DNA from: Halobaculum gomorrense
GTDB taxonomy: Archaea > Halobacteriota > Halobacteria > Halobacteriales > Haloferacaceae
DNA: 64,000 nt
Reading direction: 5' to 3'
NCBI RefSeq assembly: GCF_900129775.1
Contig: NZ_FQWV01000007.1
Location: 124,001-188,000, forward strand
The notes under the pieces: model-generated
What the model saw: the letters and a program-made list of their open reading frames with translations, nothing else
Told to the model about the DNA's origin: nothing
Databases searched by the model: none
Shown here: positions 62,501 to 63,016 of the stretch, one piece after another
Position numbering within the stretch: position 1 is the stretch's first letter
How the letters are laid out: each line of letters opens with the position of its first letter
Program-made: the position numbers and the translations under genes

Positions 62501-62693
62501 GCAGTTCCCGAAAGCCCCCGGGCGTCTGCGGTCGCGCGGAACGCACTGTCGTTCGAGAGAGCTCTGCTCTCTCGTGATGACGAAATGCCGGCTTGCCGGC
62601 CTTTCGAACCACGCTTCTCGGCTCGCTTCGCTCGCCTGCGGTGCTTGCGGTCCCGTGCTTCCCGCAGACGCCCGGCCTCTTTTAGTCCCACCC
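62501..62693 (+). repeat. A-box / hairpin / B-box element, copy 1
   Basis: Structure in order: A box GCAGTTCCCGAAAGCCCCCG (62501-62520); left stem CCGGGCGTCTGCGG (62518-62531); loop of 130 nt; right stem CCGCAGACGCCCGG (62662-62675), a perfect 14-bp match; B box CGGCCTCTTTTAGTCCCACC (from 62673). The gene-free spacer of about 720 bp between serS and the thiolase contains this and a second copy in the opposite orientation. It may be a folded RNA or a MITE-like remnant. Confidence 0.8.
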
Positions 62694-62897
62694 GTGGTTC
62701 GGACGGGCCGAGCGTCGACCCCGGTTGATCGGTGTGCACGCACCGCCGTCGGCGCGCGTCGGCGGGCCTCCGGTCACGCGAGCGGAGCGAGTGTGACCTC
62801 ACGGGACCGAAGGTCCCGGGTAGTGCCCGCCGACCGCGCGAGGGGCGAGCGAAGGAGCGGAGCGACTGAGTGAGGCGGCTGGGGGGGACGAGGCTGT

Positions 62898-63016
62898 GGT
62901 TGGGACTCAAATGGGCCGCTTCGCTCGGGGACGGCGCGGAGCGGTGAGCACCGGAGCGACCGCAGGGAGCGACGAGCGCGCCGCCCCCGAGCGAAGCGGG
63001 GGCTTTCGAGAACTGC
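62898..63016 (-). repeat. A-box / hairpin / B-box element, copy 2 (inverted)
   Basis: Read on the minus strand: A box GCAGTTCTCGAAAGCCCCCG (63016-62997; 19 of 20 identical to copy 1), stem CCGCTTCGCTCGGGG (from 62999) pairing perfectly over 15 bp with CCCCGAGCGAAGCGG (to 62916), and B box CGGCCCATTTGAGTCCCAAC (from 62918; 17 of 21 match to copy 1). The stem sequence differs entirely from copy 1, while A and B boxes are conserved. The loop is shorter (54 nt). This pattern indicates that the fold and the boxes are kept, not the stem. Confidence 0.8.

Follow-up and report, generated by a model that had tools for sequence, protein, structure and literature searches.

We found that the two inverted copies of a boxes-plus-hairpin sequence lying between serS and a thiolase gene of Halobaculum gomorrense belong to an apparently undescribed family of folded non-coding repeats, which is carried by 162 of 194 sampled genomes of the class Halobacteria and which may act either as DNA or as RNA. 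In this family the outer boxes and the fold stay fixed, while the hairpin stem is exchanged or lost. The family was found in none of the genomes sampled outside the class and has no match in Rfam.

We first wanted to verify the elements in the window, by which we mean the whole 64,000-nucleotide stretch that was analyzed (contig NZ_FQWV01000007.1, positions 124,001 to 188,000). The preliminary description had claimed an inverted pair of A-box/hairpin/B-box elements with A boxes matching at 19/20 positions, B boxes at 17/21, and perfect stems of 14 and 15 bp of unrelated sequence, and all of this was confirmed. The A boxes at 62501-62520 (+) and 62997-63016 (-) are 95% complementary, and with up to 3 mismatches only these two occur in the 64 kb, while 0.09 would be expected. 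The B boxes lie at 62674-62693 (+) and 62898-62917 (-), and a B-box 19-mer finds only these two, with 0.03 expected. One correction is needed, namely that the core box is GAAAGCCC(CC), since the outer GCAGTTC part is shared by the two ends at this locus but differs at other loci. The pair lies between two minus-strand genes, upstream of serS and downstream of the thiolase, and its parts are as follows.

62501..62693 (+), left copy of the element, A box to B box (match to the covariance model R1 at 62507-62693)
62510..62517 (+), A-box core, with the P0 5' strand GAAAG (62510-62514) and the first C-tract CCC (62515-62517)
62518..62531 (+), P1 stem 5' arm, 14 bp with 62662-62675
62549..62613 (+), extra palindromic hairpins inserted in the variable arm of the left copy
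62637..62649 (+), conserved inner motif TGCGGTGCTTGCG
62662..62675 (+), P1 stem 3' arm
62676..62693 (+), B box, with CCT (decayed CCC), P0 3' strand CTTTT, AGT, and CCC-A-CCC
62694..62897 (no strand), core between the two copies, including the recurrent module CCCCAGCCGCCTCACTC...CTCGCCCCTCGCGCG (minus strand, about 62829-62894), seen at other loci
62898..63016 (-), right copy of the element, inverted (R1 match 62898-63010)
62898..62915 (-), B box of the right copy (decayed, with P0 ATTTG and CCC-A-ACC)
62916..62930 (-), P1 stem arm of the right copy, 15 bp with 62985-62999
62985..62999 (-), partner P1 stem arm of the right copy
63000..63007 (-), A-box core of the right copy (GAAAGCCC on the minus strand)

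The extra hairpins of the left copy form a second palindromic module (TTCGAGAGAGC...GCTCTCTCGTGATGACGAAA...CTTTCGAACCACG), which is also nested in the variable arm of copies in other genomes (loci L083, L089, L141, and L100 of our set). Similarly, the module of the intervening core (CCTCCCCAGCCGACTCGCTC...TCCCTCGCGCG; 62829-62894, minus strand) follows the B box at many loci, among them L024, L032, L085, and L092, as part of a larger mosaic. When folded as RNA, the minus strand of the left copy lies 6.07 s.d. below dinucleotide shuffles, and the folded strand of the right copy 2.73 s.d. below.

To determine how widely the element occurs, we searched for related units in the window's own genome (3.2 Mb, 16 contigs) by DNA similarity and by box pattern, and an alignment of 55 copies in other haloarchaea gave the covariance model R1. 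Although the two window copies were not used to build it, R1 finds exactly these two places in the window, with 56.0 bits (E 4e-11) for the left copy and 51.8 bits (E 3.5e-10) for the right one, while the next hit has E 0.098. The genome itself has 8 model hits, and R1 has matches in 56 of 65 genera of the class, with several genomes harboring at least 24 copies. Because only 18 or 24 candidates per genome were scored, per-genome counts at those values are lower bounds. In a phylum-wide draw, the 20 genomes with a match all belong to the window's own order. Copies were also found on 78 plasmid records, and a related, degenerate copy is present on plasmid PHS2 of Halobacterium salinarum R1, while no match was found in phage records or viral contigs.

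We next analyzed the fold. It consists of P0 (GAAAG/CTTTC), an almost invariant CCC/CCC internal loop, P1 and inner helices, followed by AGT-CCC-N-CCC. In an alignment of units chosen by an exact B box, 92.9% of the cells pair, 18 of 26 pairs show double changes (252 double-changed cells against 83 in shuffles), and the covariation score is 0.430, compared to 0.117 in shuffles and at most 0.066 when the structure is slid. Since P0 could not vary in that alignment, we examined 86 copies from loci outside the box-selected set, using a scan that demanded P0 and P1 pairing and mostly-C tracts beside P1 but nothing of the AGT-CCC-N-CCC part. In 12 of these copies, P0 changes with compensation to GGAAG/CTTCC. 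Furthermore, the C-tract positions are 94 to 100% conserved (last C, 88%), while the linker centre (79%) and the N between CCC and CCC (80%) vary. Finally, of 207 units chosen by the boxes alone, 189 have at least 8 of 12 Watson-Crick pairs in P1.

The mismatches in P1 suggest which strand folds. On the A->B strand, A·C mismatches exceed G·T by 59 to 20 (p = 1e-5 against equality and 1e-4 against a composition null), and the complementary strand reads the A·C cells as G-U/G-T, so the strand complementary to A->B is probably the folded one. The test treats related copies as independent, and the p-values are therefore optimistic. The folded strand reads GGG-N-GGG-ACT-GAAAG-GGG-[C-P1...P1'-G]-GGG-CTTTC, with the last two G-tracts facing each other across the P0-P1 junction. 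We infer, with less support, that the four G-tracts form a quadruplex beside P0 with the hairpin as its last loop, which would explain a conserved 3x3 loop that no helix needs. All four runs are kept in 69 of the 86 copies, and 7 of 13 short sequences collected as hairpin-less (the hairpin-less form being exemplified by GGGTGGGACTGAAAGGGGCCGGGGGCTTTC) fit the canonical motif. ViennaRNA prefers a quadruplex for three of five hairpin-less sequences tried, although only such short sequences, and not the hairpin-loop form, could be modelled, and the linker A and T are as conserved as the G-tracts, which a quadruplex alone does not require. Quadruplexes have been shown in Haloferax volcanii, in potassium-rich cells, by a study that predicts them genome-wide and that, in what we consulted of it, does not describe a conserved repeat family or a hairpin-loop form (PMC12873603).

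To study the behavior of the element at one orthologous site, we compared the serS-thiolase region in 11 congeners (G000 to G010). The element is present in G000, G004, G007, G009, and G010 and absent from G001, G002, G005, and G008, while G003 has at most a remnant and G006 is rearranged. The stems mostly differ: left stems differ between G000, G010, and G004, while G000 and G009 share theirs. G007 lacks the left hairpin exactly at CCCCC^GGCCCC (GAAAGCCCCC directly followed by GGCCCCTTTCAG), and G010 lacks the right one, its right A box being shortened as well. Among stretches with an exact B box, units with the hairpin wholly absent form a separate length class (A-to-B distance 10). Between G004 and G006, which are 95.5% identical, units or pairs are present in one genome only at three sites, and stems differ at shared sites. 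At one of the sites where G004 has an element (297k, within locus L265), G006 has tandem copies of the about 24-bp left flank. No target-site duplication or sharp outer boundary could be read, because the flanks at the gain/loss sites are not cleanly alignable, and gain cannot be told from loss.

Units are intergenic where annotation exists, the features under the listed plasmid matches being nearly all "none." Interestingly, ten plasmids of different genera carry a copy 423 to 556 bp upstream of a gene annotated "DNA-binding protein," and two more carry one at larger distance. The C-terminal part of this protein (encoded, for example, at L272 3577-4476, L271 4023-4922, and L275 3663-4523) resembles an OB-fold by eye. 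Elsewhere, the neighbors and orientations vary.

Taken together, we favor, with moderate confidence, a non-autonomous element maintained and spread as DNA and recognized as a folded single strand by an unknown protein acting in trans. According to this inferred mechanism, recognition needs the boxes and the fold but not the stem sequence, so stems can be swapped between copies by recombination or lost at the hairpin foot. The presence or absence of units between close species, the plasmid carriage, and the absence from the viral collections point in this direction. However, no transposase or other partner protein was found, only Y1 transposases having been tested; many units sit at orthologous sites in close species, as a host-selected element would; and the lack of a hairpin could reflect deletion rather than mobility. 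The preliminary proposal of an unnamed structured RNA or mobile element whose fold is kept while the stem changes is supported, without a decision between the two. More speculatively, a quadruplex between two helices could carry the hairpin as a loop that is gained, lost, and exchanged as a cassette by a mobility system that is none of the known ones; we consider this doubtful, but the evidence does not rule it out.

Among the alternatives, a cis-acting or small RNA survives best, although we regard it as unlikely. In this view, the complementary strand is transcribed and folds (P0, G-rich loop, P1, and inner helices with conserved GCACC...GGAGC), acting on neighboring transcripts or as an sRNA. 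The strong covariation, the wobble tolerance on one strand, and the conserved internal motifs beyond the stem are in agreement with it, and 22 conserved Halobacteria intergenic RNAs of unknown function have been reported (PMC7002113), though these were not shown to be the same. On the other hand, no TATA-like promoter was noticed upstream by eye, orientation relative to neighbors varies in the plasmid contexts read, neither the window stretch nor a canonical copy matches Rfam up to E 1, hairpin-less copies exist, and copy number differs widely between close species. A bacterial-type intrinsic terminator was rejected because no T-run follows the stem (by eye).

Somewhat less likely still is a host-selected DNA site, for example a protein-bound, cruciform, or quadruplex site affecting replication, supercoiling, or transcription, duplicated mainly by recombination. 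Its conservation at orthologous sites in congeners, the recurrent position upstream of the "DNA-binding protein" gene, and the B-B' spacing of 20 to 29 nt in 22 of 29 convergent pairs would fit. However, 32 of 194 genomes have no match and the element is missing at given sites in some congeners, so it is not essential, and single sites differ between 95%-identical genomes. Left-over ends of a known insertion sequence (IS200/IS605, PATE, or a MITE) are very unlikely, despite hairpins near the ends and no visible target duplication as in IS605 derivatives (PMC3119063); an IS200/IS605 origin was rejected because Y1 transposase is absent from the copy-rich genomes G016, G019, G021, and G025 and none of 30 Y1 loci examined carries the box, other transposase families being outside this test.

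Small dispersed palindromic repeats are already known, and we compared the element with them in turn. Like the small mobile repeats (SMR) of Haloquadratum walsbyi (PMC3119063), which are about 110 bp, it has inverted ends, no transposase, many copies, and, if it is mobile, an unknown mobilizer, but SMR copies of a type are nearly identical (commonly >95%), while here stems differ between copies. Like the RAYT-driven REP/BIME elements and REPINs of bacteria, it is an intergenic, probably non-autonomous palindromic repeat often found in inverted pairs, but it has no conserved GTAG/CGTC tag at the foot (the bases next to GAAAG vary, with GTA, CTC, CCA, and CGC), a larger fold with an interchangeable stem, and no Y1 transposase in several copy-rich genomes. 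PATEs and IS200-IS605 ends of haloarchaea share hairpins near the ends and, as inferred here, a single-strand fold, but PATEs lack inverted ends and are related to IS605 transposons (PMC3119063), a link that was not found here. The swappable hairpin, the covarying P0 with a fixed G-rich loop, and the class-wide spread are new with respect to these systems, and no description of the family was found in Rfam or in the open-access literature searched, including by the box sequences themselves. If the quadruplex part holds, this would be an unusual case of a conserved quadruplex with a structured loop. Additionally, at another locus (L010; G000, contig C8, about 33112), several partial repeats (GGGCTGGGAGGGATTCGAACC) that resemble the end of the adjacent tRNA-like sequence were seen by eye to lie in tandem.
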